Shown here: piece after piece, positions 3,577 to 29,216 of the stretch | Layout: each line of letters opens with the position of its first letter | How positions within the stretch are numbered: the stretch's first letter is position 1 | NCBI RefSeq assembly: GCF_000430765.1 | Contig: NZ_AUMQ01000016.1 | Span: forward strand, 62,001-126,000 | Length of the DNA stretch: 64,000 nt | From: Peribacillus kribbensis DSM 17871 | GTDB taxonomy: Bacteria; Bacillota; Bacilli; Bacillales; DSM-1321 | Reading direction: 5' to 3' | The notes under the pieces: model-generated | What the model was told of the DNA's origin: nothing | What the model saw: only the letters and a program-made list of their open reading frames with translations | Database searches by the model: none | Position numbers and translations under genes: made by a program

Positions 3577-3588
3577 ACATTACATCTC

Positions 3589-6755: not shown

Positions 6756-8204
6756 TTAGTCTTCTCTTACCTCATCCTCAACAACCAACTCGCCATCTTG
6801 ATATATTCGAAATAAGATGGCTCCTGTTTCATTCGTTCCTAATTTCAATGCTGCATCTTCTATAACATCGGGAATGTATGAAGCAACATCGATTGTTCCA
6901 ATTTGAGAGCAATTCTTTAGAAGAGAAGAATTCCCCTGATAAACCGCGACACTTGGTTTATTAATTGAATAGAAATCCTCTGACCATTTACCATAATTAG
7001 AGTTTCTTGGGAGGATGGCTTTCATTCGGCCTCCTTCATTAATGCCCGTACTGTGACTAACTTTTTGTATCACTCTAAACGGGGACTTTCCTGACACAAG
7101 CATACCGCAATACATACCAGCCCCTAATCCAACAAGTTCCTCCATGTTTTGAGGCATAATCGGCTTTTTATCAAAAAATTCGGTAAGAAGATCTTGGACC
7201 GCTGTGATTCGGCTTGAACCTCCTACTAACACAACATGCATAATATCTTCTACTTCTAGTTCGATATCATCAAGCGTATCTTCAAGCTTATCTCTTATTT
7301 TTACAAGTAAATCAGGCTCAATCCATTCGTTAAATGAATCTCTTTCGATATACTCATCGTATACTCCGCCCCATTCATCTTCAAAGAACAGGGGATATTC
7401 TTCTTCATAAGTGAGGGCTTTCTTTAGTTCTTCTGCCTCATGACGAATTTTATTTCGGAAGTTGTCCAAGCGTTTATCGGCAGGTTTGGTCGACAGATCA
7501 ATCTTTAACAGAGAGATGAGTTTATCAATAATCCTTTGGTCAATATCTTTTCCACCCAGTTTTTTATGACCATCTGTTGTAATAACTTCTATACAAACCG
7601 TCCCATCTGACTCAAACTTTTTTTCAAAAATAGTAATGTCTAGTGTTCCACCACCAAAGTCAAAAACCAGTACTTTTTCACCATCATGAATTTCCTTGTT
7701 TTCGAAAATACCGCAGGATAACGCAGCCGCAACTGGTTCCTCAATTAAGGCAAGAACCGGTAACCTGGCTAATTGAGCTGCTTGCTTAATTTTCTGCCTT
7801 TCACGGTGTCCGAAGGCAAAAGGCACACTGACGACAACACCATCAATTTCATTGCCACCATACATATTCTCTACCCTTTCCCGGATATAAGAAAAAATAT
7901 CTGCTGCGACATCAATAGCCGTTTTCAATTGATTAAAGATTGTCCTCTGCCAGCCATTCCCCTCAATTTCTCTTTTTATTGCACTAACAAATTGATGAGG
8001 ATCTAGTTCCATTTTTTTTATAGCTGGGGCACCAATCAAGTGTTCCTCCACGCTGTCATAGAAGATGACATTTTCAATCGGCCCAGACTTGCCATAACCT
8101 GTGCTAACCAACGGTGGAACCATCTCTACTTGATTATTATTCTCTTTCCAACGTGTCACACATAAAGTAGATGTTCCGAAGTCAATACCTAGATATATAC
8201 CCAT
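6756..8204 (-). CDS. Short Hsp70-family ATPase
   Basis: A 482-residue Hsp70-type actin-fold ATPase. It has GIDFGTSTLCVT at the N-terminus (phosphate 1), VFDFGGGTLDITIF (phosphate 2), EEPVAAAL (connect region) and VVLVGGSSRITAV (adenosine motif), so ATP binding looks intact. After about residue 375 only some 100 residues remain, too short for a DnaK substrate-binding domain plus lid. FGTST replaces the usual LGTTN, which marks a divergent subfamily. It closely resembles the gene at 13354-14811 over its full length, including the C-terminal extension, so the two are duplicates. It is co-transcribed, 19 bp before the Hsp70-vWA gene. Likely role: ATP-dependent conformational partner of other Hsp70s or of the helical proteins (inference). 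Confidence 0.87.
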   Translation of the reverse strand: MGIYLGIDFGTSTLCVTRWKENNNQVEMVPPLVSTGYGKSGPIENVIFYDSVEEHLIGAPAIKKMELDPHQFVSAIKREIEGNGWQRTIFNQLKTAIDVAADIFSYIRERVENMYGGNEIDGVVVSVPFAFGHRERQKIKQAAQLARLPVLALIEEPVAAALSCGIFENKEIHDGEKVLVFDFGGGTLDITIFEKKFESDGTVCIEVITTDGHKKLGGKDIDQRIIDKLISLLKIDLSTKPADKRLDNFRNKIRHEAEELKKALTYEEEYPLFFEDEWGGVYDEYIERDSFNEWIEPDLLVKIRDKLEDTLDDIELEVEDIMHVVLVGGSSRITAVQDLLTEFFDKKPIMPQNMEELVGLGAGMYCGMLVSGKSPFRVIQKVSHSTGINEGGRMKAILPRNSNYGKWSEDFYSINKPSVAVYQGNSSLLKNCSQIGTIDVASYIPDVIEDAALKLGTNETGAILFRIYQDGELVVEDEVRED

Positions 8205-8314: not shown

Positions 8315-9748
8315 CTATACGCCATATAGTTCACTATATTTTTGAAAATGGTTGCGATGCATATATGTCTTTACAGCAGGATTCTGCGGGACATTTGTGC
8401 ATACAATATGGAAAACCAGCTTGTCCATCTGAGAATTTCGTTCCGCATACTCTAATACTTTTGTCCAAATAAGCCGCTTACGATCTCTAAGCAATGCGGT
8501 CAGAAAATTAATATGTGTCTTATTGTTCATATCAATCTGACTAAGAAGCATATTCATCTGGTAATCAAAATTCCGCAGCTTTGAAAAAGAAATTGCTAGA
8601 TACTCTAGTCTCTTCAAGTTACCTGAATCCGTATCCTCTAACGCATTCATTAATCCCTCAACATCCTCAAATTCAGACAGGAACACCTTTTCTTTAATAG
8701 AATGTACATCGTCCACATAATTTATATGATAATTAGTCTTTTCGAAATATGCCGAAAACCTGCCTTTCAAATCCTCATTTTTCAGTTTTCCAAAACAATG
8801 ACGAATTATTTGACCAGCTTGAAAGGGATTTATTCGATATATATTTTCATAAAACGTTCTTAACTCCTCATAAATACCGTCATATTCATCTGTCAACCCT
8901 TTATCCATAAAGATTTGATCCAATACTGTCCGAAGTATTTTCAACCATTTCTTCATATTTTGAAAGGCGAGGTTGTCACGCACACCTCTTGGCTGCCTTG
9001 CCACTTTCTCCGTGGATATATTTGCTTTCGTAAGCACGATATCAAAAGCAGTGATTTTCCCGTTTCTTAGTGCTGCAAGCATATATCGTGGTGCAATCTC
9101 TGTCTTATCAACTTGCTCCACAATTAACTCTAGATGTTTACTCAGCTTATTTTCCTCTACGGGCATGCCACTTAAAATATAATCATCTCCACCTAATACG
9201 GGATACTGTTTCAGAAAGCTATTCCATTTGGTAAAAAACAGTGGAGAGCCTGCATAATACCCTAAAACACGCTGGACAAGGACTTTAAGTCGTTTTAATC
9301 CTAAATTACTTCCGTTTTCAATCATTTCTTCTGCTTCTAATGGATCAACCGTTCGCGCATAGTGTCCCAACAGATTTTTTCTAAAAATTTCCGGAACATC
9401 TAATTTATTCTCAGCCACCTCATTTAACAATTTCTTGCTAAATTCAGGATGAACCTCATTTATAATGGGCCGGATGATTTTGGAGAAATGTACTGGCTTC
9501 ATATCTCGTATCAGCCATGCATTCCGAAGAACCGTTTTAAAGAAAACATCCGGATGGTAGTTTTCTGCTTTGTACTTGCTGTACATTAATTCAAATTCAC
9601 CGTTAGAGAGACATTCTTTTATAAATGCAATATCCTGATTGCTGATATACATTTCGGCATCCCTTTCAAACCGACGGTTCAAAGCATCTTCAACACGCCG
9701 ATTTGCCAAGTGGATTTTATTCAAATCAAGAGCAATGTCTATGCTCAT
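8315..9748 (-). CDS. Helical protein of unknown function in the Hsp70 operon
   Basis: A 477-residue protein that I do not recognise. It looks almost wholly alpha-helical, with repeated Leu-rich amphipathic segments such as LKRLKVLVQRVLGYYAG and FQNMKKWLKILRTVLDQIF. This suggests a TPR-like or HEAT-like helical repeat scaffold. No signal peptide, membrane segment, nucleotide-binding motif, Cys cluster or HPD J-domain motif is visible. It lies 30 bp downstream of one Hsp70 gene and 110 bp upstream of another on the same strand. From position it may be an adaptor that presents a substrate to the chaperones. The reading frame and codon use match neighbours, so it is a real gene. The function is open. 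Confidence 0.7.
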   Translation of the reverse strand: MSIDIALDLNKIHLANRRVEDALNRRFERDAEMYISNQDIAFIKECLSNGEFELMYSKYKAENYHPDVFFKTVLRNAWLIRDMKPVHFSKIIRPIINEVHPEFSKKLLNEVAENKLDVPEIFRKNLLGHYARTVDPLEAEEMIENGSNLGLKRLKVLVQRVLGYYAGSPLFFTKWNSFLKQYPVLGGDDYILSGMPVEENKLSKHLELIVEQVDKTEIAPRYMLAALRNGKITAFDIVLTKANISTEKVARQPRGVRDNLAFQNMKKWLKILRTVLDQIFMDKGLTDEYDGIYEELRTFYENIYRINPFQAGQIIRHCFGKLKNEDLKGRFSAYFEKTNYHINYVDDVHSIKEKVFLSEFEDVEGLMNALEDTDSGNLKRLEYLAISFSKLRNFDYQMNMLLSQIDMNNKTHINFLTALLRDRKRLIWTKVLEYAERNSQMDKLVFHIVCTNVPQNPAVKTYMHRNHFQKYSELYGV

Positions 9749-9778: not shown

Positions 9779-11455
9779 TTAGCTCCCAAAGATAGAACCG
9801 TTCACTTTCAAACGGTGAATCGGATCCTTTAACGCTTCACTTGGCGATAGTAAAACAGTTTTCTCCTCAATAGTTAATTCACCATGCTCCAGAATTTTTA
9901 AATGAACAGTTTTGTTTCGGTCGAAAAACCATTCAATCCGAATTACATCATCTTTATCAACTGCTTTTTGTAACTTGAAAAATCGTCCATCAATTGGTGT
10001 ATAGGCTGATGGGTCATTCCCAAGTCCATAATAGAGGAAAATAGGAATATCAATCATTTCTTCTTCTGGTACTTGATATTCAAAAACTCCCTGTTCACCA
10101 GGATTGACCGTTCTTGGGATCATAACATCGTAGGAGGAACCAATCTTGATTAAAATATCATCTGCCATGCGGTCCTGTAATTTTAATTTTTTGATTTCAA
10201 CGTGGTCTTCCTCCTGGGCAAATTGGTAAATGGACGCACCTTTGGAAACAGCCGAAACCGGATCAATAAATTTATATTGGATCATGTCAATATCTGTGAA
10301 ATATTGACGAATTGTTTCCTCAACTAAATAAAAATTGGACATACCGCCTGTAAATAAAATTTCACTGATGTCCTCAGGCTTAATATTAGCTTCTGAAAGT
10401 GTCTGTTTAATTGGTGCAAGAAGAGTTTCACGGCCCTCACGATCTGTATAACAACTGAAAATTTGATTCAGCATCGGATAGGTTATCGTTGTTAAGGTAC
10501 TTTGTCCATCAATCACTTCAAACCCCACAGCCTGCTCTTGTCTATCGCGACGCCTAGGTTTATCAATATATTGAGAAATTCGATCATTAAATTCAATCTT
10601 TGCCTTTTCCGCTTCGGAAACAATACGGGCAATGATTCGATTCTGCTCCTCTATTGCACGATCTGTAATCGAAGAGCGGGCCCTTTCAAATTCTGAAAGG
10701 AAATAAGCTCCTAGCAGCTGGTCGAAATTATTTCCTCCCAGATCCATCCGTGGCGATCTCGCAATAATATTTATATCAACATCCCCTGTTAGATCCTGTG
10801 AGATATTAGCAATACTCACATCGAGCGTTCCTCCGCCAATATCGTATACAAGAACATTCATTCCTTCTTCTGAAAGCTGTTCTTCAACAAATGCCTCAGG
10901 ATCATGAATATGCCAATAAAGTGCTGCGGTTGGCTCATCAAGTAAGTTAACATTTTTGAATCCAGCCAGTCTTGCGGCATTTTCAGTCGCTATCCGTTCA
11001 TCATTATTAAAAGCTGCGGGAATGGTAATTGTCACTTCATCAATTTCCTCATTCAATTGTTTTTCCAATGAGAGTCTGATGGTTTTTAAATACAAAGCCG
11101 AGCATTGTTTCATATCGAAATATTCAGATGACTTCTTCCCGCTAATACTTGGAATTTCGACTGCCGATTCTCCACCTATTCTTGTTTTGACTCCTCGTAC
11201 TGTCTGCATTGGACGAGATCCGCCGCCATAAATACTTTTCGCATATTCCCCTGTATAAACCGTTTCATTATCTAAGTCAAAGTAAAGAACTGAAGGTAGT
11301 TCTACTGCGTTTAAATTAGGTGAATGATTTTTGTCATATTGATAGATTGATAGTGTTTTTAGCTTTTCAATTGGATTATCCAAAAAATCATTATACTCGA
11401 TCACAGATACCGTGCTGTTTGTTGTCCCTAAGTCTATTCCCACAAAATACGCCAA
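9779..11455 (-). CDS. Hsp70 family protein with substrate-binding-like C-terminus
   Basis: A 558-residue Hsp70. Motifs: GIDLGTTNSTVS near the N-terminus, VYDIGGGTLDVS (phosphate 2), DEPTAALYW in the connect 1 region and ILFTGGMSNFYLV (adenosine motif, where Gly-Met replaces the common Gly-Ser or Gly-Thr). After about residue 420 there is a beta-rich region with DVMIPRTVNPGEQGVFEYQVP and KTVHLKILEHGELTIEE that resembles a DnaK substrate-binding beta domain. No helical lid follows. The ATPase also has an expanded segment with RRRDRQEQ near residue 300. It starts 152 bp after the coiled-coil gene, the largest gap in the operon, and ends 30 bp before the helical-protein gene. It is a distinct paralogue, not a recent duplicate of the others. 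Confidence 0.88.
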   Translation of the reverse strand: MAYFVGIDLGTTNSTVSVIEYNDFLDNPIEKLKTLSIYQYDKNHSPNLNAVELPSVLYFDLDNETVYTGEYAKSIYGGGSRPMQTVRGVKTRIGGESAVEIPSISGKKSSEYFDMKQCSALYLKTIRLSLEKQLNEEIDEVTITIPAAFNNDERIATENAARLAGFKNVNLLDEPTAALYWHIHDPEAFVEEQLSEEGMNVLVYDIGGGTLDVSIANISQDLTGDVDINIIARSPRMDLGGNNFDQLLGAYFLSEFERARSSITDRAIEEQNRIIARIVSEAEKAKIEFNDRISQYIDKPRRRDRQEQAVGFEVIDGQSTLTTITYPMLNQIFSCYTDREGRETLLAPIKQTLSEANIKPEDISEILFTGGMSNFYLVEETIRQYFTDIDMIQYKFIDPVSAVSKGASIYQFAQEEDHVEIKKLKLQDRMADDILIKIGSSYDVMIPRTVNPGEQGVFEYQVPEEEMIDIPIFLYYGLGNDPSAYTPIDGRFFKLQKAVDKDDVIRIEWFFDRNKTVHLKILEHGELTIEEKTVLLSPSEALKDPIHRLKVNGSIFGS

Positions 11456-11607: not shown

Positions 11608-13335
11608 TTATTTCTTCACTATTTCTGCTGAAAGAGTGTCTGTTTTTTGTAGTTCTTCAACCACATCGTTGCTTTCCTGTTTTTGTTCTGTTGGTTGTTG
11701 TTCTTCAGTCGGCTGCTCATTTTCAGCAGCTTCATTGGTTTCGTTGGTTAGATTTTGATGATGAGCAGCACCCGTTTCTAAGCTGTCTTCAAGTACACTG
11801 GAAACATCCATAACTCCTACTTGTTTAGTGCTATCTTGGAATGAATTATTTGTTTCCTCAACCAGTTTCTCATTAGGAATCTTAACAGCTTTGGCTTTTT
11901 TAAAGGATTGATTCGTGTCTTTCCAGACAAACTGTGATTCTTCAATTAAATACTGACCTTCATCCTCATATTCAAAAGTAACCGCAGCCTCATAATCTTT
12001 ACGATTCTCATCGGTAATGGTGATTTGTTCCCCTAATTTCAGTTCTTCACTTCTAACTAGTCCATTGTTTGTGAAAAAAGCTTGCACCCCATTTAGTTTC
12101 CCATCTGTATATAAGTCATCTAAATTTGCAAATGCTCTTGCAAACTTTGATATTAATTGCTTGGTGACTTCAGTTTTTACCATTTGTTCTACTTTCTTCG
12201 TTGTCATTGCTTCAATCTGTTCGTGTTCTTGCTTAAGTTTTTCATTTTCTAATTTTAAAAGTTCCATTTCTTTTCTCTGGGCAACATAGTGTCGGGATGC
12301 TAATGTGAGCTGTTCGAGAATAAGTTGACCTTGCTCAGCCAATTCAATGACGACATCATCTTCACGATTAAATGGCTCTAACTTTTGTGAAAAGTTCACT
12401 TTGTCTAGCTTACCTTTCAAATCATCTAAAACACTTGATTTCCCTAGCAGTTCTTCTACTGTTTCTTTTGTCTCATTTACCATTGTTTTGATGCGGCTGA
12501 TGTTTTTAGATGTATCTTCTAAATGCAGTGTAACGGTATCTCCAATCTTCCCTGGCAATTGACCTAATTTTGACTCCATCTGTGAAATGGAAGAAGTTGT
12601 AGTATTAGAAATTTGGTTCAAACGTTCCGAATTCTTATTGACAGAAGATAATATTTTTGTTGTATTATTTTCAGCTACACTTTCAAAATCCGACTTAATC
12701 TTTCTAGGTAACTGGTTAAGTTTATAATCCATATTCTTTGCTGCTTCCGGCATTTCTGTAACAACAGGCTTTAAAAAGCTATCTAAATCATTTAACGTTA
12801 CCGGCATAGGGTACTTTTGTACTAATTGTGCAATTCCATCAATTTTTTGGTTAGTATTTGCAAACTCATGATTATTATCCAACCTATCAAGGTTTCCCTT
12901 AAGATTTTTATTTTGTTCCCTTAATTCCTGGTAGCCTTCGTATAACTCACTGAATTTGTCACCTAACTTTTCCTCTAATAATCCGTCTATTAATCGTAAT
13001 AATTCTTGATTATTTTTCACCCAATTGCCTCTTTCTTCTTTAGAGTCATCTTTTCGCAATAAATTCAAACTCAAGAAAGATGACTTAGAAGTTCTTTGTT
13101 CATTATCATCCGATTGTTCGTTTTGTATCGCATGAACACTCTCATTTTCTACCTTTTCTTTAATCTTTCCTGTTCTTATTAATTCATTAACAGAAGGTTT
13201 ATATTCTTTATTGGGATCATACGTAAAAGGTTTTTCGCCAACTGTGAATTTTATGTTGGTATTATTCTTTTTACCTTTATTTTTAATAATCTCTACAGAA
13301 AAATCTTGTAGGACTATATAAACTTTTTCTGACAT
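11608..13335 (-). CDS. Long coiled-coil protein, possible GrpE-like exchange factor
   Basis: A 575-residue protein. Residues 1-55 form a small strand-rich head. Residues 100-300 contain heptad-type helices with Asn/Gln-rich linkers, residues 335-395 a strong coiled coil (KEMELLKLENEKLKQEHEQIE). Residues 395-425 form a short helical bundle and 430-487 a beta-rich segment (EAAVTFEYEDEGQYLIEE, then VWKDTNQSFKKAKAVKI). The tail from about 490 is acidic and disordered. The order coiled coil, helical bundle, beta wing is that of GrpE, the DnaK nucleotide-exchange factor. Five Hsp70 genes in the same operon would need such a factor. The GrpE link is an inference from order and spacing, not from a diagnostic motif. 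The gene is 18 bp after a short Hsp70 gene. Confidence 0.6.
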   Translation of the reverse strand: MSEKVYIVLQDFSVEIIKNKGKKNNTNIKFTVGEKPFTYDPNKEYKPSVNELIRTGKIKEKVENESVHAIQNEQSDDNEQRTSKSSFLSLNLLRKDDSKEERGNWVKNNQELLRLIDGLLEEKLGDKFSELYEGYQELREQNKNLKGNLDRLDNNHEFANTNQKIDGIAQLVQKYPMPVTLNDLDSFLKPVVTEMPEAAKNMDYKLNQLPRKIKSDFESVAENNTTKILSSVNKNSERLNQISNTTTSSISQMESKLGQLPGKIGDTVTLHLEDTSKNISRIKTMVNETKETVEELLGKSSVLDDLKGKLDKVNFSQKLEPFNREDDVVIELAEQGQLILEQLTLASRHYVAQRKEMELLKLENEKLKQEHEQIEAMTTKKVEQMVKTEVTKQLISKFARAFANLDDLYTDGKLNGVQAFFTNNGLVRSEELKLGEQITITDENRKDYEAAVTFEYEDEGQYLIEESQFVWKDTNQSFKKAKAVKIPNEKLVEETNNSFQDSTKQVGVMDVSSVLEDSLETGAAHHQNLTNETNEAAENEQPTEEQQPTEQKQESNDVVEELQKTDTLSAEIVKK

Positions 13336-13353: not shown

Positions 13354-14811
13354 TTAAACTCGGGCCACTTCGCCCTCACTAACAAATTTACTTTTTTCAT
13401 TAAACGTCCGGTAACACACCAAACCACTGTCAGACATTTTAAGCTGCATGCGGATAATCCCATTTGGATAATCTTGCTGATTCACAACCAAGTAACCAAC
13501 TTCGCTACAATGCTCAATAAATGGAGAATTCCCTTGATAGATGACAACTTTGCCTTTCTGCTTATCCTTTGGGAGGGAGAAGTCATAGAATGGTGAATAT
13601 TGCCCATAAAGTTCGTTACGAATTAAAATTGGTTTAATCGTTTTATTCGTAACCCTTACACCGAATCCGTGACTCGAACGACGGATTACATCGATCTTCT
13701 CACTTCGCCCTGTAATTATTCCGCAGTAAATAGCTGCTCCCTTTCCCACTAATTCACCAGGATCATCTATCATCTTCGGTCGTTTTCCAAAGAAGTCCGT
13801 TACTCTTTTAGCTATTATTGGTATATTACTTGTCCCTCCGACAAGGATGATTTGTTCGATCTCTGAAATTTGCACAGATATGTCATCTAGGACACGGTCT
13901 AGAACGTTATCAATCTTGTATAAGAAGCTGCCTTCTAACCACTCTTCAAGTTGGCTTCGTGTAATAACTTCCTCTAACGGATTATCGACTATCTCAAACT
14001 TTTTAAAAATCTCGTACTCTTGCATATCTGATAGTCCAATTTTCGTTTGACGAGCTTCCTCAAAAAGTTCATTTCGAAATCTAGCATCATGTAAAGGCCC
14101 TGAGCCCGCAGTCATCATGGATAAAAATTTATCGGCAATTAACTGATCGATATTTGCGCCTCCTAAAAGACGCTCGCCATCGGTATTTTTTACAATGACA
14201 CTTTTTTTCCCATCATTGCCCAGTATGGCATCAAATAATGTCACATCAAATGTTCCGCCGCCTAAATCAAAGATAAGTACAGTTTCTTTCGACCCTGGTC
14301 TTAATTCATCAAATAATCCGCTTGACAGCGCTGCTGCAACTGGCTCTTCTATTAACGCTAACACTGGCACACCCGCTGATTTCGCTGCTGTCTCGATCTT
14401 TTTCCGTTCTTTAGGCTCAAAGGCATAAGGAACACTAATAACTGCCCCCGTAATCTCTTGGCCTCCGTAAATTGTTTCAACCCGCATTTTTATGAATGTA
14501 AAAATATCGGTAATAATATCTTTAGCCGTTTTCTTATGCCCTCTTATTTCACGGGACCATCTATCGTCATCCAAATGTCTTTTAATTTCACTTACACCGT
14601 TCCAAGGGTCTAATTGACAATGCTTAACAGCCTTTTTCCCCATAATCAAGTTACATGACTCTTCGTAGTAAACGACATTATCAACGTAGTTACCGGAACC
14701 ATATTCAGATGGGATTAAATTCGGTACAGGTAAAGCTATTTGTTTCTCTTCATCCCACTTTGTTACATATAAAGTGGATGTACCAAAATCAATGCCTATG
14801 TATAATGACAT
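13354..14811 (-). CDS. Short Hsp70-family ATPase, duplicate of the 6756-8204 gene
   Basis: A 485-residue Hsp70-type ATPase. GIDFGTSTLYVTKW opens the protein, IFDLGGGTFDVTLF is phosphate 2, EEPVAAALSSGLF is in the connect region and IILVGGTSNIPII is the adenosine motif. The FGTST variant, the overall length and the short C-terminal region (FRVT-type hinge, then GNSPFIEHCSEVGYLVV) all match the protein at 6756-8204, so an ancient tandem duplication is likely. It lacks room for a canonical lid. Spacing is 15 bp after the upstream helical gene and 18 bp before the coiled-coil gene, consistent with translational coupling. Two such short Hsp70s each beside a helical protein (262 and 477 residues) hints at matched pairs. 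Confidence 0.87.
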   Translation of the reverse strand: MSLYIGIDFGTSTLYVTKWDEEKQIALPVPNLIPSEYGSGNYVDNVVYYEESCNLIMGKKAVKHCQLDPWNGVSEIKRHLDDDRWSREIRGHKKTAKDIITDIFTFIKMRVETIYGGQEITGAVISVPYAFEPKERKKIETAAKSAGVPVLALIEEPVAAALSSGLFDELRPGSKETVLIFDLGGGTFDVTLFDAILGNDGKKSVIVKNTDGERLLGGANIDQLIADKFLSMMTAGSGPLHDARFRNELFEEARQTKIGLSDMQEYEIFKKFEIVDNPLEEVITRSQLEEWLEGSFLYKIDNVLDRVLDDISVQISEIEQIILVGGTSNIPIIAKRVTDFFGKRPKMIDDPGELVGKGAAIYCGIITGRSEKIDVIRRSSHGFGVRVTNKTIKPILIRNELYGQYSPFYDFSLPKDKQKGKVVIYQGNSPFIEHCSEVGYLVVNQQDYPNGIIRMQLKMSDSGLVCYRTFNEKSKFVSEGEVARV

Positions 14812-14826
14812 TGGTCCTCACCCTCT

Positions 14827-15615
14827 TTATTTTTTTTCATATTTCCATACATAACATTGCCCTGTACATATTGGTACCTGGCCACTATAACGCTTATCAT
14901 TAAAGAAATACGGGAGCATGACTAAATCAGCAATCTTCCCATGAAGAGCCTGATTATCGGTACTTTCTGGAATGAGTTCTAAATGGTCAAAATCCACATC
15001 TTGGCTAACTTTGTATATTTTTGTAAAAATACCATATTGTGCGATAAACTCATTAAAAAAGTTAACAAGCCACTTATAGTAGTTTGGACTACTCTTTAAG
15101 CCTTCTAGTAACGCAGGCATAACATGCGAAATAAGCCCTTCTCCAAATGCTTTTCGAAGGACATCTTTCACTTTTTCCTGGACTTCATCTACATCATTAC
15201 ATTCATCAAATGATGTCCTTAAAGCCATTTGCAGTCGTTTTTGAAATTGAATTACATATTTAGGGAGAATTTGTATATTTCTTTTTACATCATCAGGAAT
15301 TGATTCCTGAGTCAGTACACTTTGTATCTTAGTCAATAATTCTCTCGTATCTTTTTGAATTATGGATTGGGCAAGTTTTAGAAACATAGTCCCGTTTGTT
15401 ACTTGTTCATAAAGGGCTGGAATCTCATTCTTCTCGATATGCATTTGTTCAATAACATGTCCCTTTGTTTCAAGTAGTTCCTCCGGTTTCTCTCCCTCGG
15501 GTTCTGGATACGGGGTACGAATAAGAATAATCCCTCGTTTTTCAAATAGCTTTCTTCCTTTAAGCAAGACCTCATGCATATCCTCTAATGATATATTCTT
15601 TAACTGATCGGTCAT
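14827..15615 (-). CDS. Helical protein of unknown function
   Basis: A 262-residue protein that I do not recognise. The N-terminal 60 residues hold a strand with IILIRTPYPEPEGE. The middle is helical (YEQVTNGTMFLKLAQSII, then RKAFGEGLISHVMPALLEGL). The C-terminus is rich in aromatics and contains two Cys (PICTGQCYVW), which could bind metal or form a redox pair, though two Cys alone are weak evidence. No HPD motif is present, so it is not a J-protein. It lies between the Hsp70-PIN gene (37 bp) and a short Hsp70 gene (15 bp) and is clearly part of the operon. It may serve as a dedicated co-chaperone or adaptor (inference). Confidence 0.68.
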   Translation of the reverse strand: MTDQLKNISLEDMHEVLLKGRKLFEKRGIILIRTPYPEPEGEKPEELLETKGHVIEQMHIEKNEIPALYEQVTNGTMFLKLAQSIIQKDTRELLTKIQSVLTQESIPDDVKRNIQILPKYVIQFQKRLQMALRTSFDECNDVDEVQEKVKDVLRKAFGEGLISHVMPALLEGLKSSPNYYKWLVNFFNEFIAQYGIFTKIYKVSQDVDFDHLELIPESTDNQALHGKIADLVMLPYFFNDKRYSGQVPICTGQCYVWKYEKK

Positions 15616-15652
15616 ATAAGCATCTCCTTTCTAAACTGATAACGAAATCCAG

Positions 15653-17998
15653 CTACTTTGCACTATGTTTCGTGACATGTCCATGTGATAACAATTTACC
15701 TGTCATTTTGTCTTTCACTTCAGCTGCTACATTTAACCCGTATTTTTTAGACATTTCAAAAGTGATTTCTACATCAACATCCGTTCTTACACGAGGCGGA
15801 ATGTTTGAAATGGTCAATTTTTCTATATGCATCATATCTTCGTCTGTCGTATAAAGGCAGCGGCTGCTTACATCCCCACGATAGACATTTATTTCAAGGG
15901 TTTCCGCATAATCATGTAAGGGCATAAGTATTACAGATTCACGTGCTGGAAGTTCTGAACCACTTGGAATGACCATCTGAAAATCAATTCGATTTTTCAA
16001 CACGCCAAAGTGATGCATTGTTTTATCAAAGATTTTCGGTTTGTCAGTAATACCCCCTTTGCGGCCAAATTCACTAGCAGCATAAATAGCTGCCCCTTCC
16101 GCAATGACTATAGCTGCATTTTTCTCATAATTTGGTTTAAAGCCAAATGCTGCTTCCACTTGTTGCTGAACATAAGGAATTAACGAAGTCCCTCCAGCAA
16201 GAACAGTAATATCAATATCGCTATATTGCAAACCTGCTCTCTGCAAAGCATTTGAAGTTTTTTGCAGTGTACGCTGAACAAACCTTGCAATCCATGTTTC
16301 AAAAGATTTACGTAGAACAATAAACTCAAATGGCCTTTTCTCAGCTGGTGCTATATATAGTGAAACAAGAAAAGAAGCCGAATCAAATTCAGATAGCTGT
16401 ACTTTCAGTTCTTCTGCTGCTTTATACATGGCAGTCTTATTTTTTTGATGCTCTTCATCACTGATACCTAAGAAATCAGGTTCATCCAAAATAAGGTCAT
16501 GCTCATCTTCAAACATATCCATCATCTTTTCCACAATCGTCCGGGTAATGTCTTCGCCACCTAATTTCACATCCCCGTCATCGCCAAGGTTTCGGTACTT
16601 TCCATCTGCTTCCGTTTCAATAATGGAAACATCAAACGTACCTCCGCCCCAATCGTAGACAAGAATCTTCTTCGCAACACTCGAATCATATCCATAGGCA
16701 ATCGCAGCAGCAAAGGGCTCACGAATTAATCGGATCTCGTCAAAACCAGCAGCATAGGCAGCTTGGCGTGTAGCATCTTCTTGCTGTGGGGTAAAGGAAG
16801 CCGGTATACCGATTGCAGCTTTTGTGACATTACCTAGTTCTTTCATTGCCTTTTCCCTCAAATGGCGCAAAAACAATTGTGTAGCTTCTTCCGCTGCCAC
16901 TTTGAACGTTGACTCCTCGCGATCCTTATTCATGGTCATCTCTAATCGAAACTCATCATAATTTTGGGTTTTAACATCAACAATGTTTGCCTTTTGCCGT
17001 AATCCGCGGTCATTCGTAATAAGTATCGGATTCTCACTGTTTAGTTTTAAGGCAATAGACAATATTTTGTTGTCATTTTTATCGTTGTTTGTGGTCCCTT
17101 TAAAGAAATCATCCGGTAACAAGGTTAAATCTGAGCTCTCATATCGAATTCGGTTTTTATGCTTATCTAAGTAATCAACAGCCTTCTCGGCCTGAAATTT
17201 AGTAGAAGGATTTGTTTCGATATGGTAATTAAGTTCTTCTGATACTGTAACAGGTACGCAAACATCATCCTCATCCAGAAACTGCTTGATTAATTCAGGA
17301 ACTTCGATGAACACATTGGTATCGACTACGTATGTAGCTTTTGCTATGTCTGTTGGCTTAGTTTCAGAATTAGCCTTCTGATATTTCACCTGGAAATAGC
17401 GGTCCTTCAAATCTCCTAGTTTTCTTTTAAAATAGCGGATTCCACTTTCAGGGTTCACAATGCGTTTGTTAACTGCCTGTTTGCCAAATACAATTTTTCC
17501 TGGCTCTTCAAAATACACCGCACTTGGGATAATGGATTCAGATCCAAATTTTAACGTTTTTACTGACCCACCATCATAATAGGTTACAACTGAATTAGTA
17601 GTTCCAAGGTCAATTCCTATTTCACGGCCATCAGTCATGTCTAGCACGATATCTTCAAGTTCTTCGTATTCCTCTGCAACTGTTTTATAGTTGTGAACGT
17701 TTCCTTCTTTTTCATCTATAACTCGAGCATCATGTTCATCGTTATCGGCCGACTCTTCTTCAAACAATTCAAAATCAATATTAGCATCTAAATTATCTGA
17801 ATCCCATACATAATCAGTCTTTTCTAGGTCAGTTTCTATTTCACTATCATCATTGCTTAAATCAAATTCGTAAACGTCCAAACCATCATTAAAATCATCA
17901 TCTTGTTCTGACTCTTTTGGAGTTTCATCTGATGTATCTACTTTGTATAGATTAATAGTCTCGAATTCATCTTCAATTGAACCTGATTTTTTTGTCAT
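15653..17998 (-). CDS. Hsp70 with acidic N-terminal extension and inserted PIN nuclease-like domain
   Basis: First gene of the operon, 781 residues, ATG with GAAGGAGTG upstream. Residues 1-120 are very acidic and probably disordered. The Hsp70 ATPase begins at IGIDLGTTNS (127-136) and resumes later with VYDWGGGTFDVSII (447-460) and VLAGGTSLIPYV; a substrate-binding-like beta region ends the protein. Between them, at about 222-346, a PIN domain of the PhoH-associated type is inserted: VVDTN with Asp226, SEEL with Glu254/255, NDNKIL with Asp309 and TNDRGLR with Asp330. All four acidic positions expected for metal-dependent RNA cleavage are present. The insertion falls in subdomain IB of the ATPase, so nucleotide state could control the nuclease. 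I know of no described Hsp70 with this layout. Domain identity is by motif. Confidence 0.85.
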   Translation of the reverse strand: MTKKSGSIEDEFETINLYKVDTSDETPKESEQDDDFNDGLDVYEFDLSNDDSEIETDLEKTDYVWDSDNLDANIDFELFEEESADNDEHDARVIDEKEGNVHNYKTVAEEYEELEDIVLDMTDGREIGIDLGTTNSVVTYYDGGSVKTLKFGSESIIPSAVYFEEPGKIVFGKQAVNKRIVNPESGIRYFKRKLGDLKDRYFQVKYQKANSETKPTDIAKATYVVDTNVFIEVPELIKQFLDEDDVCVPVTVSEELNYHIETNPSTKFQAEKAVDYLDKHKNRIRYESSDLTLLPDDFFKGTTNNDKNDNKILSIALKLNSENPILITNDRGLRQKANIVDVKTQNYDEFRLEMTMNKDREESTFKVAAEEATQLFLRHLREKAMKELGNVTKAAIGIPASFTPQQEDATRQAAYAAGFDEIRLIREPFAAAIAYGYDSSVAKKILVYDWGGGTFDVSIIETEADGKYRNLGDDGDVKLGGEDITRTIVEKMMDMFEDEHDLILDEPDFLGISDEEHQKNKTAMYKAAEELKVQLSEFDSASFLVSLYIAPAEKRPFEFIVLRKSFETWIARFVQRTLQKTSNALQRAGLQYSDIDITVLAGGTSLIPYVQQQVEAAFGFKPNYEKNAAIVIAEGAAIYAASEFGRKGGITDKPKIFDKTMHHFGVLKNRIDFQMVIPSGSELPARESVILMPLHDYAETLEINVYRGDVSSRCLYTTDEDMMHIEKLTISNIPPRVRTDVDVEITFEMSKKYGLNVAAEVKDKMTGKLLSHGHVTKHSAK

Positions 17999-18609
17999 AG
18001 AATTATCACTCCTTCATTGTATCCTAGTACTTTTGCCAAAAAGCCCTTAAAACTTTGAGACAATTTAACTATTTAAACTTAATTAAGCAAATTTGGAAAT
18101 AATAAAATTTTACCACATGGTTTTTATAGAAATTGTCGTTTTTTGTCGAATTTAGTAGTGTTCTTTCTTTTTTGAAATATAATGTTGTTCTTTGTTATAT
18201 TTTGTTAATAAAAAACCTCGATGAACTATACATATGAAATACCGCTAAAAACCAAATTACTAATAGCAATGGGATTATATAATCTTTCTCGGTGATCCCA
18301 GTTGCTAGTAAAATCGGTTAACTTCATTCTCACGGAAACATTTCATAATGTTTAGATTTTTAGCAATTCTTAATTCCTTACTTTGCCATACAGGGGTTAT
18401 TCGGAAAATCACGCTACCAATCAGAAGCGAATTCCAATCGATCATCCAGTGTATAATTAACTATCAAAGCACAGTTAATATAAATCGAAATCACCGGGAT
18501 TAAAATGATTTCTGAAAGGTAAAACCAAAAGGCCAAAAAGTATCAGGTATTTCCCGGAATCAATGAACTTACTAGATTCTTAAGCACACATGTAAAGAAA
18601 TGAATTTAG
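17999..18609 (-). promoter_or_regulatory. Leader region of the Hsp70/dynamin operon; no gene seen
   Basis: About 610 AT-rich bases upstream of the operon's first gene. A GAAGGAGTG ribosome binding site lies just before the start. A weak promoter-like pair, TCGACA and TATAAA, is visible on the minus strand around 18125-18155, but the 15-base spacer is short. I do not see a CIRCE inverted repeat (TTAGCACTC/GAGTGCTAA), so HrcA control as for dnaK is not supported. The part from 18230 to 18600 has stops in all frames and no recognisable coding remnant. The promoter position is uncertain. Confidence 0.35.
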
Positions 18610-18972
18610 ATGTCTGTTAAGAACTTTGAAAGCAACAGTAAAGAAACGAAAGCTAACTGCTTTGAAGCAGAAAAATCCTTTATTTCTCTTGGCTTGCTGG
18701 AAATGTTCGATCTCTTATTATACGAAGTAAAGGGTGGAGATAATCCGGAAATTTTCGTCCGGATCAACTCAAAGCTACAAATTGAAAACACCATTAAAAA
18801 CGCTGACAATTATAATAACACCATTTTAAACAATGTCCACAAAAGACATAAAATTTCTGTTGAGATGCTCACGTACCTTTTTGAGAATGAAGTCAAAACA
18901 GTAGAGTTTTGGAATTATATCGAGGAATATTTCCTTGGTAGAGTTCCACAGCAGGTTTTAGAGAGAGTTTAG
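18610..18972 (+). pseudogene. Stranded C-terminus of a helicase-like protein
   Basis: A 120-codon frame whose latter part (GGDNPEIFVRINS, then WNYIEEYFLG) matches the extreme C-terminal pattern of RecQ-like or DEAD/DEAH defence helicases as I remember it. No helicase motifs precede it, there is no ribosome binding site before the ATG at 18610 and upstream frames are closed. I therefore read it as the 3' remnant of a deleted gene, not a small gene. A good terminator follows 8 bases after the stop, which fits retention of the original gene end. The family assignment is tentative. Confidence 0.5.
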
Positions 18973-18980
18973 TAGGTATA

Positions 18981-19017
18981 AAAAACAGTACCCAAATGAA
19001 AAGGGTACTGTTTTTTT
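18981..19017. terminator. Bidirectional rho-independent terminator
   Basis: A 13-base-pair stem (AAAAACAGTACCC paired with GGGTACTGTTTTT) with a 9-base loop, flanked by A and T runs on both sides. It lies between the plus-strand helicase remnant and the convergent DUF2357 gene and can end transcription from either side. Confidence 0.85.
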
Positions 19018-19049
19018 ACATAATTTTTATTATAACTGCACTTGTATCC

Positions 19050-20864
19050 TTAAACCTGTTGTCCTTCCAGCAATTGCAAAAAAGGCTCACTAAGCTGGAT
19101 AAGCCGATCAATAGCCTCCACCACTTTATCCTCGAGATGTGAGTTATCAAAGCCTGGTGTTAGTTCTATAAGGTTAAGCTTGTGATCAGGAAATTCCTGC
19201 TCACCTGGTATGCTATAGCGATTTGGATAGATTGCCCATACCTCATAAACCGGACTGAATTGCCCCTTGTATAAACTTTTTACATCTCCGAACAGGTATG
19301 GTGACTGAAGATTGTCTCCGTAGCTGACCAATTGCCTCATGACACCGTTCTGCTGGTTTGAGAAGATCAGGGTTTGATCCCAAATCGCCCTTCTTGGTCG
19401 ATATTTAAAATCAAAAACAATCGTTCCGATAAATATCTCGTCCTTATAAACATCTATTCTTCCGTCAGGGCATGTATGAGTACCGCGTGTGTATAGAGGC
19501 CTTTCCATAGTTGTGAACTTGCTTTGGGTAGGAAGTAAGGCTTCATAGACTAAGTGTACTCGAACATTGTCCTTTCTGAATACGACTTCTGTAGCTGACG
19601 GCAGAGTGGGTACTAACAGCTTATGGCCGTCAAAACGTTCATTGAAGACCCAGCCCTTTTCAGCTGTGTATCCTACCTTCCTGCTTCCCAACGCTTTGAT
19701 GAACTGGAGGTAACCCCAAATTTCATATAGCTTATCGGTCCGTTTCCATTGATATGAATACGACTTATCCATCACAAGCTGGATCTGCTCACTATTTAAT
19801 TCACGGTAAACCTGGTAAAGGGCCCTGTACCGTGGGTCGCTGTTCATTACGTAAGGCGGTACTGTTGAATAGTATGGCCCAACGCTTTCATACCACGGTG
19901 CCGTCTTAATCCACTGAATCGCCCCTCTCATCTTCCTCGCCATTTCACTAAATGACTCCAGTTCAGTCAAAGTCCTATCTTTTTCCCTCTTAGTTCGGAA
20001 TTCACCGAATTGCCCCTCAGTTTTAACCTTGTATTCCATCCGCTCTACAGCATCTATAAAATTTGAAAGAATGTGGGAGAGAGAATTAATAATCTTTTTA
20101 GTAAATCGATTCTCGGGAATGTCATATAACGTGCTACTTATGGGTGTTTTCAGGACATTCTCATTTTCTGGATGGCTAACTCGATGCCTGATTGTTCTCT
20201 CATCGATTTGTCTTGATTTTTCTTTGGGAACAAGCACATAATTCTTGGTGATCTTATAGTTCACGTTTCTGTATAAATCACTTAGGGCAGACATAACAGA
20301 TGGAAATCGATTCTTTATAACAATGAATTGGCCCAGCAGCCCCTGAGAAATACCTTCGTAGCCTGTGTGCATTCCCGTTTTCTTCAGAATAACATCACGT
20401 GCTAGCCCTCTAAGCTCTTTTTCAACTTCATTCCTCATTACTTCCCACTGTGCTTCTTCCAGTTGCTTCGGAATTACCTTTATCCAGCTGTAATACCGCT
20501 CCCCCTCATGATGAACAACAAGACGGTAGTACCCCGGTATTAACGGATAATAATTATTGCCATTTGCAAAGAGAGTGACAGGCTGTTCTGATGGCGGTAG
20601 AAATACATCACCTTCCAGTGGATCCACCTCAAGCAATCTCTCCGATAATGTATCCAATCCATCCATATAAAATCTGGAGTCTATATTATTCGAACGAAAA
20701 GTGACCGATAGGTCGATATTTTCCTTTATTTCGACAAAGCTCTCTTCCCGTTTTACATAGAAATCCGTTTCCGAGTTGAAATAATCGTTTATGGGAAACT
20801 CAAGGTAAGCCTCCCCACGCTTTTGAGTAAAAACTACTTCAAAGCCTTTAGAGGGTATAGCCAT
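19050..20864 (-). CDS. DUF2357/McrC-like PD-(D/E)XK nuclease
   Basis: A 604-residue protein, last gene of an McrBC-like cassette. The central part matches DUF2357 proteins (IKNRFPSVMSALSDLYRNVNYKITKNY). The C-terminal region holds a PD-(D/E)XK nuclease core: CPDGRID with Pro466-Asp467, then IVFDFKYR with Asp485 and Lys487, giving the D...DxK pattern. DUF2357 proteins pair with McrB-type AAA+ motors and are thought to cut modified or foreign DNA. The start overlaps the upstream ATPase gene by 17 bases, which is strong evidence for coupling. The N-terminal 130 residues are beta-rich and may be a sensor or contact domain. Which DNA feature is recognised cannot be seen. Confidence 0.82.
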   Translation of the reverse strand: MAIPSKGFEVVFTQKRGEAYLEFPINDYFNSETDFYVKREESFVEIKENIDLSVTFRSNNIDSRFYMDGLDTLSERLLEVDPLEGDVFLPPSEQPVTLFANGNNYYPLIPGYYRLVVHHEGERYYSWIKVIPKQLEEAQWEVMRNEVEKELRGLARDVILKKTGMHTGYEGISQGLLGQFIVIKNRFPSVMSALSDLYRNVNYKITKNYVLVPKEKSRQIDERTIRHRVSHPENENVLKTPISSTLYDIPENRFTKKIINSLSHILSNFIDAVERMEYKVKTEGQFGEFRTKREKDRTLTELESFSEMARKMRGAIQWIKTAPWYESVGPYYSTVPPYVMNSDPRYRALYQVYRELNSEQIQLVMDKSYSYQWKRTDKLYEIWGYLQFIKALGSRKVGYTAEKGWVFNERFDGHKLLVPTLPSATEVVFRKDNVRVHLVYEALLPTQSKFTTMERPLYTRGTHTCPDGRIDVYKDEIFIGTIVFDFKYRPRRAIWDQTLIFSNQQNGVMRQLVSYGDNLQSPYLFGDVKSLYKGQFSPVYEVWAIYPNRYSIPGEQEFPDHKLNLIELTPGFDNSHLEDKVVEAIDRLIQLSEPFLQLLEGQQV

Positions 20865-22899
20865 TAATCTTCAACTCTTTCGCCTTATGAATTATCATAT
20901 TTCTTGTATTATAAAACTCGGATACTTCATGAAACTTATCAAGTATATCTGCCAAGCTGCTGTCTATGACTGTGCCGTTAATGGAATCATAAGTACCTAG
21001 AAACTTCTTGAGCTGTTCTTCTGGTCCCCTTACCTTGGTCATAATTCTTTGTACTATTTGCAAATCAACTGCATCCTGTCTCGATAAAATCTCACTATTA
21101 GGAAGGTTCTTTAGATACATATCAATCTGGCGAACAATCCTTGGCCCTGCACCGATGTTTTTATTTACGCTCTGCAGCTCTTGATGGATTTCCCAAAGCA
21201 GCTCAAGTTCATTATTACTAAGTTGAATTTCACGGTCATTATTCCGGAAGCTTTCATACATTTCAAATGTAATCGACTCTTTTTCTTTCTTTAGCGGCCA
21301 TCGCTTTTCCTCAGCTGCATTTTTCATCTCTTCCGATAGCAGCCTTAGATTTTTGAATGGTAGTACATTAAGTGAAATGACATTTGCGCGATCAAGGACC
21401 TTGTCAGAAAAATGATAGGTCGATTCATCAAGATTTACAGTTCCAACAAAAATTACGTTTTCCCCAATAGGAATAATAGGCGGATATTGTGCCGAATTAT
21501 ATAATCTATTTTCCAAGTCTTCATTGTAAAGCCTCAATACACGGCGAGGGCCAGATTCATTTTCAAGTACAGACAGGAACTGAGAGAAGTAATGCTCTAC
21601 ACGCGCCAAATTCATCTCATCAAAGCAGATAATATGGAGTTTCTTTTTATTTTCTTTCGCGCTCATCAATGTATTGATGAGTCCTGAATCTCCTGGGCGG
21701 TAAACCATGTGAAGTGTATCCGCATAGCCAATGAGATCTGCATCGTCCGTCCAGGCTGGCCTTACAGGGATAAAGGTCATTTGATGGCTGTCAAATAGCC
21801 CCAGAGCCTTGGCGTAGGCTTGTACAAGCTTGGATTTTCCTGTACCGCTCATGCCGGCAAGAATTACAAGGTTGGAGGATTTCATAGCTGTATGAAAATT
21901 ATATAAATCAGCCTGATCGTATAATAATCCTTGTTCACGAGTGATATGTGTGAACTCATCCATTAATCTCTCTTCTGATATTTCAACCTCGGTAAGCGGC
22001 ATAGGTTCGGTTTTTCGTTCCTGTTCCTGCGTTTGCTGCTGTGGGATAGCTTCTTTAACCGTATCCTTACTTTTTGGAGGCTCGACGGCTATGGCAGCGG
22101 CCACTTCTTGAGAAGCTATGTGAGCTTCGTCCGGCTTGATTTCTGGAACGTCCTCATCCAAATCTTCTCCCACAGCAACCAATTCAGAGATGGCAGAAAG
22201 GATATCAAATGTTATAAACATGATGCTTTCTCCATAATCATAACAGTCATCAATCCATTCATCCTTAAAGGCAATAGATTTTAAGGGTTCATGTACTGAA
22301 AGAGCAAAGCCGCCGTGTGCGTAGTGGTGACCACTGAACTCTCCAAACACTCTATATTCCTCATTATTGTTTTTCCACAGAATATATTTAGGAGTATCAT
22401 TTGGTTCATTGGAAATATTGTCAACACGCCCAATGTATTTTCGATTTTGCAGCCGATACACAAACTCTGAATAAGAGCTTCCATGTTCATCCTCACTAAA
22501 TATCGGAAGAGGAATCAGAGATACATCATCCTGGAAGCTTTCGGCTTTTGGAATTAATCTGATTTCTCGGCCCACAAACACTTCTGTATGATCGAAAAGA
22601 ACCTTCCGTATTGGTTTAAAAACTACAAGATTATCCTGCAGAAAATCCTGCAGCGCGCGAATCCTAAAGTGCTGCAGGTCATTATAATTGTCTTCAAATC
22701 CCCATCTTTCGAGATCGGTCGCATAACAGGTTACTAGCTTAACATTTGGAAAGCTTTCCGGTTCCTCCGAAATGATTTTTACAAAAAACTGAATAACATT
22801 TTGGCTGTTGATATAAATTGCCTGTTTATCTATCGTATTTAGGACATAATCCTCATCAGCCAGGATACCTACTAAATCACTGTTCCAAGATTTATTCAA
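20848..22899 (-). CDS. McrB-type AAA+ ATPase/GTPase
   Basis: A 683-residue protein. Residues 1-260 are an unrecognised N-terminal region that may act as the target-recognition part. A Gln/Glu-rich linker follows (about 275-305). The AAA+ motor spans about 320-600: Walker A GMSGTGKS at 349-356, Walker B IICFDEMNLARVEHYF with Asp428-Glu429, and the sensor-like TVNLDEST...SDKVLDRA typical of the McrB clade. McrB relatives form hexameric rings that translocate DNA or remodel the target and activate an McrC-like nuclease. It is 6 bp after the coiled-coil gene and overlaps the DUF2357 nuclease gene. Whether it uses GTP, as McrB does, or ATP cannot be told from sequence. Confidence 0.83.
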   Translation of the reverse strand: MNKSWNSDLVGILADEDYVLNTIDKQAIYINSQNVIQFFVKIISEEPESFPNVKLVTCYATDLERWGFEDNYNDLQHFRIRALQDFLQDNLVVFKPIRKVLFDHTEVFVGREIRLIPKAESFQDDVSLIPLPIFSEDEHGSSYSEFVYRLQNRKYIGRVDNISNEPNDTPKYILWKNNNEEYRVFGEFSGHHYAHGGFALSVHEPLKSIAFKDEWIDDCYDYGESIMFITFDILSAISELVAVGEDLDEDVPEIKPDEAHIASQEVAAAIAVEPPKSKDTVKEAIPQQQTQEQERKTEPMPLTEVEISEERLMDEFTHITREQGLLYDQADLYNFHTAMKSSNLVILAGMSGTGKSKLVQAYAKALGLFDSHQMTFIPVRPAWTDDADLIGYADTLHMVYRPGDSGLINTLMSAKENKKKLHIICFDEMNLARVEHYFSQFLSVLENESGPRRVLRLYNEDLENRLYNSAQYPPIIPIGENVIFVGTVNLDESTYHFSDKVLDRANVISLNVLPFKNLRLLSEEMKNAAEEKRWPLKKEKESITFEMYESFRNNDREIQLSNNELELLWEIHQELQSVNKNIGAGPRIVRQIDMYLKNLPNSEILSRQDAVDLQIVQRIMTKVRGPEEQLKKFLGTYDSINGTVIDSSLADILDKFHEVSEFYNTRNMIIHKAKELKINGYTL

Positions 22900-28507: not shown

Positions 28508-28541
28508 GTAACAAACTCTCTTCTCTCCAATTTGTTATTGC

Positions 28542-29216
28542 TTATAAGAAATAACTATATAACTCCGATACATATGTTTCTATCCCGCCTTCTACTAAAC
28601 TTGGTTCAATCGTATTTAACCTTGCGGTGTTTAGTTTTAACACTCTACGAAATAATTGCGGCACTTTTCTACCCGCAAGTAATTTGTGCTGTCTCATAAT
28701 TTCTCGTGTTAATTCTACACGATAACCCGCACTCCCTGAGCGATCAAGTAATTGACTGATTTCATCTGAAGAATTATTTCTTAGCGTTTCGAATGTCTCC
28801 TCCGCTGTTCCCTGCCAGGACAGATGTATATACCACCAAATGCTTTTCAGCCATATACGGCGAGTTCCTTTATAAAAACGTTGGTCATTTATACCAAATC
28901 GTTCATATACTAAATCAGGAAAAACTTCCAATGACAAATATCGCCACACTTCATCCTGTGCTGCCAATCTCTCATTAAAATCAAAATCCTCTTTCAATAT
29001 ACGGTACAATACTAATCCCATATGCAGGTCAAATCCGTAGGAATTAATTTTCTTGATCTCATCAAGTAAAAATTTTTCCTTTTCATCAATCATAATTTCA
29101 CGAAGCCGATCAAAAGGCGCTCTCACTTGGCGTGGAGCGCATTTTTCCGGGTCAGCCTCAATTTGTTGAAATTTAAATTTGGCCTGGGCTTTTGTATAAA
29201 CTACATTTTGCCACAC
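28542..29216 (-). CDS. Unknown protein of Z1 cassette A (possibly DUF6339-type)
   Basis: A 224-residue basic, helical protein. The start is a GTG at 29216 whose G is the last base of the TAG stop of the preceding gene, so the two are coupled. It is rich in Arg and aromatics (TRRIWLKSIWWYIHLSW, then YRVELTREIMRQH). This resembles proteins listed as DUF6339 beside Z1 genes, as far as I can recall, but I cannot confirm this. There is no visible catalytic motif. The RSG-S-AGYR segment and the repeated basic helices would suit nucleic-acid binding. It is found only in cassette A of this window. Confidence 0.6.
   Translation of the reverse strand: MWQNVVYTKAQAKFKFQQIEADPEKCAPRQVRAPFDRLREIMIDEKEKFLLDEIKKINSYGFDLHMGLVLYRILKEDFDFNERLAAQDEVWRYLSLEVFPDLVYERFGINDQRFYKGTRRIWLKSIWWYIHLSWQGTAEETFETLRNNSSDEISQLLDRSGSAGYRVELTREIMRQHKLLAGRKVPQLFRRVLKLNTARLNTIEPSLVEGGIETYVSELYSYFL

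Follow-up and report, generated by a model that had tools for sequence, protein, structure and literature searches.

Can a complete nuclease domain be housed inside the ATPase of an Hsp70 chaperone? This question is raised by a gene of Peribacillus kribbensis DSM 17871, located in a 64,000-nucleotide stretch of contig NZ_AUMQ01000016.1 (assembly GCF_000430765.1, positions 62,001 to 126,000 of the forward strand). We refer to the whole stretch as the window, give all coordinates as positions within it, and call the 781-residue product of the gene Hsp70-PIN. An earlier inspection of the letters and their translations, here termed the sequence-only reading, had proposed that a PIN nuclease-like domain of the PhoH type interrupts the Hsp70 ATPase at residues about 222-346. 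Our analysis shows that a complete PhoH-type PIN domain is indeed nested inside the ATPase of a divergent bacterial Hsp70.

A PIN domain interrupts the Hsp70 ATPase

The reading frame of Hsp70-PIN comprises 781 codons, is uninterrupted by stop and stays in frame across both junctions of the insert. When the whole protein was compared with Pfam, the match to HSP70 (PF00012) was split in two pieces around a match to PIN_4 (PF13638) at residues 223-347. Both scores are far above the Pfam cut-offs (E-values in Table 1), which excludes a chance match. Comparison with PDB sequences by phmmer led to the same picture. Against the best DnaK match, residues 125-196 correspond to DnaK 3-74 and residues 369-768 to DnaK 109-489; against DnaK of Geobacillus kaustophilus, 126-195 correspond to 4-72 and 369-762 to 86-458. 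The alignment thus breaks at the PIN insert, where G. kaustophilus DnaK has residues 73-85, about 13 residues. The interval to which the insert had been assigned, 16949-17335, corresponds to residues 350-222 of the protein. Pfam, the split DnaK alignment and the modelled fold described below all bear out the proposed interruption.

The inserted domain

Taken alone, the inserted stretch matches PIN_4 with an E-value of 3.1e-22 (75.0 bits against a cut-off of 21.9), covering profile positions 1-131 of 132, and also passes the general PIN model of Pfam (27.7 against 23.6 bits). Residues 221-376 align with positions 2-168 of the NCBIfam PhoH2 model at 3.4e-8, far below the cut-off of that full-length model, and no PhoH domain following PIN was found in the 781-residue protein by Pfam at E-values up to 1.

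Residues 206-360 modelled alone by AlphaFold2, with 52 PIN rows from viral contigs, fold as PIN, with a mean predicted local distance difference test score (pLDDT) of 89.8 and a predicted template modelling score (pTM) of 0.81. The best PDB matches found by Foldseek are PIN domains or PIN-bearing chains of SMG6, 3ix7 and the exosome (E about 1e-6 to 3e-5). VIA-align superposed the model on the SMG6 PIN domain (2hww_C) with Z 15.6 and a root-mean-square deviation (rmsd) of 2.6 over 119 residues. Structure prediction and fold comparison therefore gave PIN and no other fold, and the PhoH-type affinity first ascribed to the insert is supported by profile, alignment and fold alike.

The alignment of relatives has 53 rows including the query, the others being 52 of the 56 non-redundant PINs among the best 80 from viral contigs. 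Identity of the insert to these 52 relatives ranges from 0.25 to 0.36 (mean 0.30). All 53 rows agree at D226, E255, D309, D330 and R334; the four acidic positions picked out at the beginning (D226, E254/255, D309, D330) were right. Among the 32 columns conserved in at least 90% of the 52 relatives, Hsp70-PIN has kept 19 and lost 13. Retained catalysis fits this pattern, because all five catalytic-type columns are kept while 13 of 32 conserved columns are lost, and the domain is predicted to be a live metal-dependent endoribonuclease.

Site of insertion

In the full-length model, strands 200-207 and 362-368 flank the insert with low to middling confidence (block mean pLDDT 58 and 46 for residues 191-210, and 69 for 361-370). 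The second piece of the ATPase is confident, with block pLDDT of 82-98 for residues 371-640. With the same low to middling confidence, the model places the insertion in the hairpin of subdomain IB, an assignment that draws on the alignment with DnaK and on the usual subdomain boundaries. The distance between the K191 motif and the IPA motif is 205 residues in Hsp70-PIN. It is 67-70 residues in all 80 of the best-matching Hsp70s listed from viral contigs and 48-53 residues in four sibling Hsp70s encoded in the same apparent operon, and none of these four siblings has an insert at this site.

The flanking strands are separated from the PIN domain by about 13 and about 15 residues, which suggests stretches long enough for a flexible tether. 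The full-length model itself leaves PIN unplaced (pLDDT below 50 for residues 204-266 and 280-360). It was built with 46 Hsp70 rows in an alignment without PIN rows; 42 of 80 Hsp70s from viral contigs had been kept after removal of near-duplicates (one 558-residue Hsp70 of the window and DnaK L090 excluded). Since Hsp70 and PIN rows were modelled apart, this model is silent on the place and contacts of PIN. A joint Hsp70 and PIN alignment was dropped, as its PIN rows became spread over Hsp70, and a plain global alignment with the DnaK of this genome, in which residues were scattered, was left unused.

A divergent Hsp70

The motifs GIDLGTTNS, K191, E427-P428, DWGGGTFD, GGED and GGTS are retained in Hsp70-PIN. 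Because these Hsp70 ATP-site motifs are present, ATP binding and perhaps hydrolysis by the Hsp70 part are likely on sequence grounds. A comparison with 43 Hsp70 rows (42 sequences from viral contigs and one bacterial DnaK) shows that Hsp70-PIN preserves 72 of their 137 invariant columns and departs from the other 65. The interdomain linker LLL has become KIF, and the Asn preceding the EP motif is replaced by R426; in Escherichia coli DnaK both positions are important for the coupling with J-proteins and with the substrate domain. The beta substrate-binding domain is present, profile and DnaK matches running to residues 763-768. No helical lid follows it: the PF00012 match stops at profile position 487 of 599 and the protein ends about 13 residues past the beta domain. 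The N-terminal extension of residues 1-120 contains 45 D/E against 8 K/R, and its first 90 residues are unstructured in the full-length model.

DnaK-type Hsp70s such as 2v7y (G. kaustophilus) and 5obu (Mycoplasma genitalium) share with Hsp70-PIN the nucleotide-binding domain (NBD) and the beta substrate domain. Comparison of the model with DnaK structures gave Z of 41.7-42.4 with 459-468 residues aligned; the rmsd is 3.1 to 9a5j but 22.9-23.4 to 2v7y and 5obu. Unlike DnaK, to which it is about 30% identical, Hsp70-PIN carries PIN in its NBD, and with the lid absent, the linker altered and an acidic 120-residue extension in front, it is an Hsp70 by family but not a canonical DnaK. Its score with the NCBIfam DnaK equivalog model, 251.4 bits, does not reach the cut-off of 648. 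The genome's own DnaK aligns with G. kaustophilus DnaK over 510 residues at 4.2e-291.

Table 1. Parts of the Hsp70-PIN gene, the other genes of its operon and the upstream McrBC-like pair (window positions).
Feature	Coordinates	Strand	Evidence
Hsp70-PIN gene, 781 aa	15653..17998	-	Open reading frame; PF00012 1.8e-70, PF13638 8.7e-21
N-terminal acidic extension, residues 1-120	17639..17998	-	Composition; pLDDT <50 for residues 1-90
Hsp70 NBD piece 1, residues 125-207 (phosphate-1 motif, K191, strand preceding insert)	17378..17626	-	DnaK alignment; low-confidence strand
PIN_4 (PhoH-type) domain, residues 222-347	16958..17335	-	Pfam, alignments, AlphaFold2 model, PDB comparison
Acidic residue D226	17321-17323	-	Alignments
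Acidic residue E255	17234-17236	-	Alignments
Acidic residue D309	17072-17074	-	Alignments
Acidic residue D330	17009-17011	-	Alignments
Hsp70 NBD piece 2, residues 362-648 (strand past insert; IGIPA, EP, DWGGGTFD, GGTS)	16055..16915	-	Alignments, model
Residues 649-781: divergent linker between the domains, then beta substrate-binding subdomain; lid absent	15656..16054	-	PF00012 match end, alignment
Operon gene 2, product of 262 aa without a family assignment above cut-off; no homologue found	14827..15615	-	
Operon gene 3, Hsp70-like, 485 aa, without insert	13354..14811	-	
Operon gene 4, product of 575 aa without a family assignment above cut-off	11608..13335	-	
Operon gene 5, Hsp70-like, 558 aa, without insert	9779..11455	-	
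Operon gene 6, product of 477 aa without a family assignment; no homologue found	8315..9748	-	
Operon gene 7, Hsp70-like, 482 aa, without insert	6756..8204	-	
Operon gene 8, Hsp70 with C-terminal von Willebrand A (VWA) domain, 688 aa	4670..6736	-	PF00012 1.5e-97, VWA 2.5e-10
McrC-like (DUF2357-PDDEXK_7, 604 aa) and McrB-like (683 aa) pair	19050..22899	-	Pfam, PADLOC

Search for further examples

Homologues were sought with a query of 231 residues covering PIN and both flanks. At a threshold of 1e-6, the own genome was the sole match among 43 genomes of its family (42 others) and among 397 drawn from its order, while 29 other genomes matched among 398 of its phylum; the three samples partly overlap. 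Of these 29, one matched via the Hsp70 flank only and 28 via the PIN part, in open frames of 222-515 residues. Frames of at least 200 residues at 19 of the 28 PIN-matching loci included none with both a PIN and an Hsp70 match. Two odd frames from the phylum sample turned out to be the start of a PIN (222 residues) and an Hsp70-VWA protein without PIN (747 residues). All ten PIN relatives that were scanned, seven from the phylum sample and three from viral contigs, consist of PIN_4 and PhoH.

At 1e-5 the same query matched none of 72,556 plasmid and 50,697 phage records. The full protein matched 249 of 250 genomes of the class, its own included, and every listed row other than its own gene begins at residue 366 or later. 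Neither the best 80 of 221 PIN relatives in viral contigs nor the best 80 Hsp70s there showed a match to the other domain. A whole-protein pattern search of a larger collection of genome contigs, which reaches close relatives only, returned 84 stretches and no relative. A scan of the larger collection with a degenerate PIN and Hsp70 pattern was discarded, as the pattern fails to match the Hsp70-PIN gene itself; of its 79 loci, three match the query by tblastn at 1e-3 (two via DnaK, one via a PhoH-type PIN) and two more contain PhoH-type PINs by phmmer, with no frame bearing both domains.

Within the genome, plasmid and phage samples searched, the PIN-Hsp70 fusion therefore has one known member. 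The sequence-only reading had pointed to loss of the acidic residues in most homologues as evidence against it; no homologue carrying the insert was found in the family, order and phylum samples. It had also named no described example of such a protein, and our full-text literature searches, with subscription papers mostly outside their coverage, likewise turned up no nuclease nested in an Hsp70 ATPase and no PIN-Hsp70 fusion. None is described in the available portions of PMC11090510, PMC7159879, PMC8195603, PMC7824862 and PMC3710099. The architecture is apparently undescribed, both component families being already known.

Probable operon and defence island

Hsp70-PIN is the first of eight same-strand genes which are separated by gaps of 15-152 bases and extend down to position 4670. 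Because of this close same-strand spacing we infer that the eight genes form one operon, five of its products being Hsp70s. Scans of 14500-19100 for promoters and terminators gave results near chance. No Pfam match to MoxR, GAP1 or FNIII was found among the eight operon proteins, three of which have no family above the cut-off. The operon sits in a dense defence island.

The Hsp70-VWA protein at the end of the operon was followed with its last 249 residues as query. Matches occurred in 61 of 126 other genomes, and the listed rows cover residues 3-57, the Hsp70 part, only. This search was weak, since it missed the 747-residue Hsp70-VWA fusion of G532, a genome in its sample. That second fusion, found in another genome of the phylum (L306, G532:C155), lies on a contig together with a further partial Hsp70 frame and the gene of a protein that contains CxxC pairs. 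We take this contig as a sign of a wider multi-Hsp70/VWA system.

Upstream of Hsp70-PIN, besides a type IV-like ResIII helicase, lies the McrBC-like pair. In its McrB-like ATPase (20848-22899), which has a DUF2357-PDDEXK partner, NLD replaces the NxxD motif, and the PADLOC match is PDC-M26A (1.2e-49). This pair was considered as a part of the Hsp70-PIN system and set aside, as two PLSDB plasmid records, of Companilactobacillus (within 10 kb) and Enterococcus, show no annotated Hsp70 near a related pair; the gene tables of PLSDB are incomplete. The pair is probably a separate system.

Further genes of the window were also recorded. Downstream of the operon, positions 1469-4608 encode a colicin-DNase/WHH protein, a SUKH immunity-like protein and a dynamin-like GTPase. 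Upstream of Hsp70-PIN the defence island further comprises two Z1/DUF4420 clusters (50293-57579 and 27587-35053), each including an MzaC-like protein and one of them adding MzaB-like, MzaE-like and AIPR proteins. On the same side, two EcoRII-like restriction enzymes are encoded at 40384-41559 and 47450-48679, one beside a C5 cytosine methylase (48615-49604), with an integrase (43477-44451) between the two.

Relation to known systems

The insert belongs to the same PIN_4 family as the PIN of PhoH2/YlaK-type proteins (14 of 14 aligned members match PIN_4). It has identical acids, its DNK/DNR and TND/TKD motifs are much alike to theirs, and both kinds of protein combine PIN and an ATPase in one chain. 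They differ in arrangement: in PhoH2/YlaK-type proteins PIN precedes the PhoH ATPase, whereas in Hsp70-PIN it sits inside the Hsp70 ATPase. In the same genome, a 447-residue frame encodes a further PIN_4 protein, probably YlaK, with a better score. Mycobacterial PIN-PhoH, as presented in the available part of PMC4826407, is an RNase and RNA helicase whose growth inhibition is relieved by an antitoxin. PhoH2 is the nearest precedent for a PIN RNase joined to an ATPase.

CoCoNuT systems, with the Hsp70-like CnuD, likewise bring together Hsp70-like ATPases and nucleases in defence loci, and the McrBC-like pair upstream of Hsp70-PIN, with NLD for NxxD, resembles their NxD-type McrB (PMC11090510, available portions). 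A CoCoNuT has an NxD McrB GTPase with long coiled coils, and its McrC partner carries the other Cnu domains; in the neighbouring pair the NLD motif and a DUF2357 partner were observed, and a similar pair occurs elsewhere without annotated Hsp70. According to the same portions of PMC11090510, Hsp70 is either fused to McrB or McrC or encoded by a separate gene in CoCoNuT, and the RNases are typically HEPN. The term PIN domain is absent from the main text of that paper, whereas Hsp70-PIN has PIN within Hsp70, with McrBC seemingly separate. In the available text on the conflict systems of Kaur et al. (PMC7159879), Hsp70, vWA and PIN each occur as components, but PIN accompanies vWA components, FHA or NACHT, not Hsp70; an effector role of PIN is reported there separately from the presence of Hsp70 or vWA in other conflict systems.

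Possible function of Hsp70-PIN

We tentatively propose, at slightly less than an even chance, that in Hsp70-PIN a defence-type Hsp70 carries PIN as an RNase effector, which ATP-dependent assembly brings to RNA, halting growth or infection. The Hsp70 part and its siblings would bind exposed peptide or another protein signal linked to infection or damage, by means of the beta substrate domain. ATP-dependent assembly would then bring or concentrate PIN on RNA, and cleavage of host or phage RNA would stop growth or infection. The attachment of PIN would chiefly tether and position it, while direct control through the nucleotide state would be an option. The nested PIN with intact acids, the ATP motifs, the operon with five Hsp70s and VWA, and the defence island argue for this proposal, as do the PIN-PhoH make-up of the PIN relatives and the published occurrence of PIN, Hsp70 and vWA in conflict systems; we infer the RNase activity, the effector role, recruitment by the substrate domain and sibling Hsp70s, and the RNA target.

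Several points weigh against the RNase effector. PADLOC matches of the operon Hsp70s are weak and chiefly to one candidate family, and a role of the five-Hsp70 operon in phage defence is putative. No cognate antitoxin was recognised, the 262-residue neighbour being a candidate by guess. Hsp70-PIN is a single representative, and conservation of the acids is seen only across PIN relatives. Moreover, the positions D257, K260 and R271, fully conserved in the 52 relatives, read N, I and E, and two conserved glycines of the relatives lie in a deletion. Together with the other lost columns, the three substitutions would suit a PIN without catalytic activity that binds RNA or oligomerises, yet the four acids and R334 persist where identity to the 52 relatives is 25-36%, and we regard an inactive PIN as improbable. 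The retention of the acids at such a distance suggests long upkeep of the domain and speaks against a recent accidental insertion or an assembly artefact without function. One copy was found, in a draft genome of 38 contigs, as an accident or artefact would have it; nevertheless both junctions are in frame in 781 stop-free codons, and the GC content of PIN (0.36) falls inside the range of the gene's other parts (0.33-0.42), so that we give this explanation very little weight.

Two other explanations assign the nuclease a different use, and we consider both unlikely. The ATPase might gate the nuclease directly, as the sequence-only reading suggested: motion of its lobes, or an exchange factor at the cleft, would cover and uncover the PIN site, the ATP or ADP state thereby switching cleavage. 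Binding of a client or exchange factor could then move IB and license RNA cleavage, making Hsp70-PIN a chaperone-sensed, ATP-gated defence RNase; we think this version just as unlikely as gating in general. The insertion lies in the region of subdomain IB, which GrpE contacts, and the Hsp70 ATP-site motifs are kept. A clash of at least one exchange factor with subdomain IB, described in the available part of PMC4753570, lends plausibility to gating. On the other hand, the segments on either side of PIN, about 13 and 15 residues long, point to a loose tether; PIN has no defined place in the full-length model, and the interdomain linker is divergent. Slightly less probable again is ordinary RNA quality control outside phage defence, which also counts against the RNase effector: Hsp70 would dock on ribosomes or nascent chains, and PIN would cut the message of stalled or damaged translation. 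The PIN of SMG6, a protein acting in mRNA decay, and RNA-exosome chains are among the best solved-structure matches. Hsp70s are also reported as ribosome-associated in the available portions of PMC11090510. However, similarity of fold proves no function, Hsp70-PIN is missing from the 42 further genomes of the family that the search covered, and its gene is located in a defence island.

The finding singles out the IB region in the ATPase of Hsp70 as a place where a whole enzyme domain can be accommodated. Should the ATP-gated explanation be true, the Hsp70 ATPase cycle would directly switch a nuclease nested in its own nucleotide-binding domain. As an RNase effector carried by a defence-type Hsp70, the protein would unite, within a single chain, a chaperone's sensing of protein state and the cleavage of RNA. 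It would thus offer a compact model for the action of chaperone-type defence systems and possibly a design for a nucleotide-responsive RNase.

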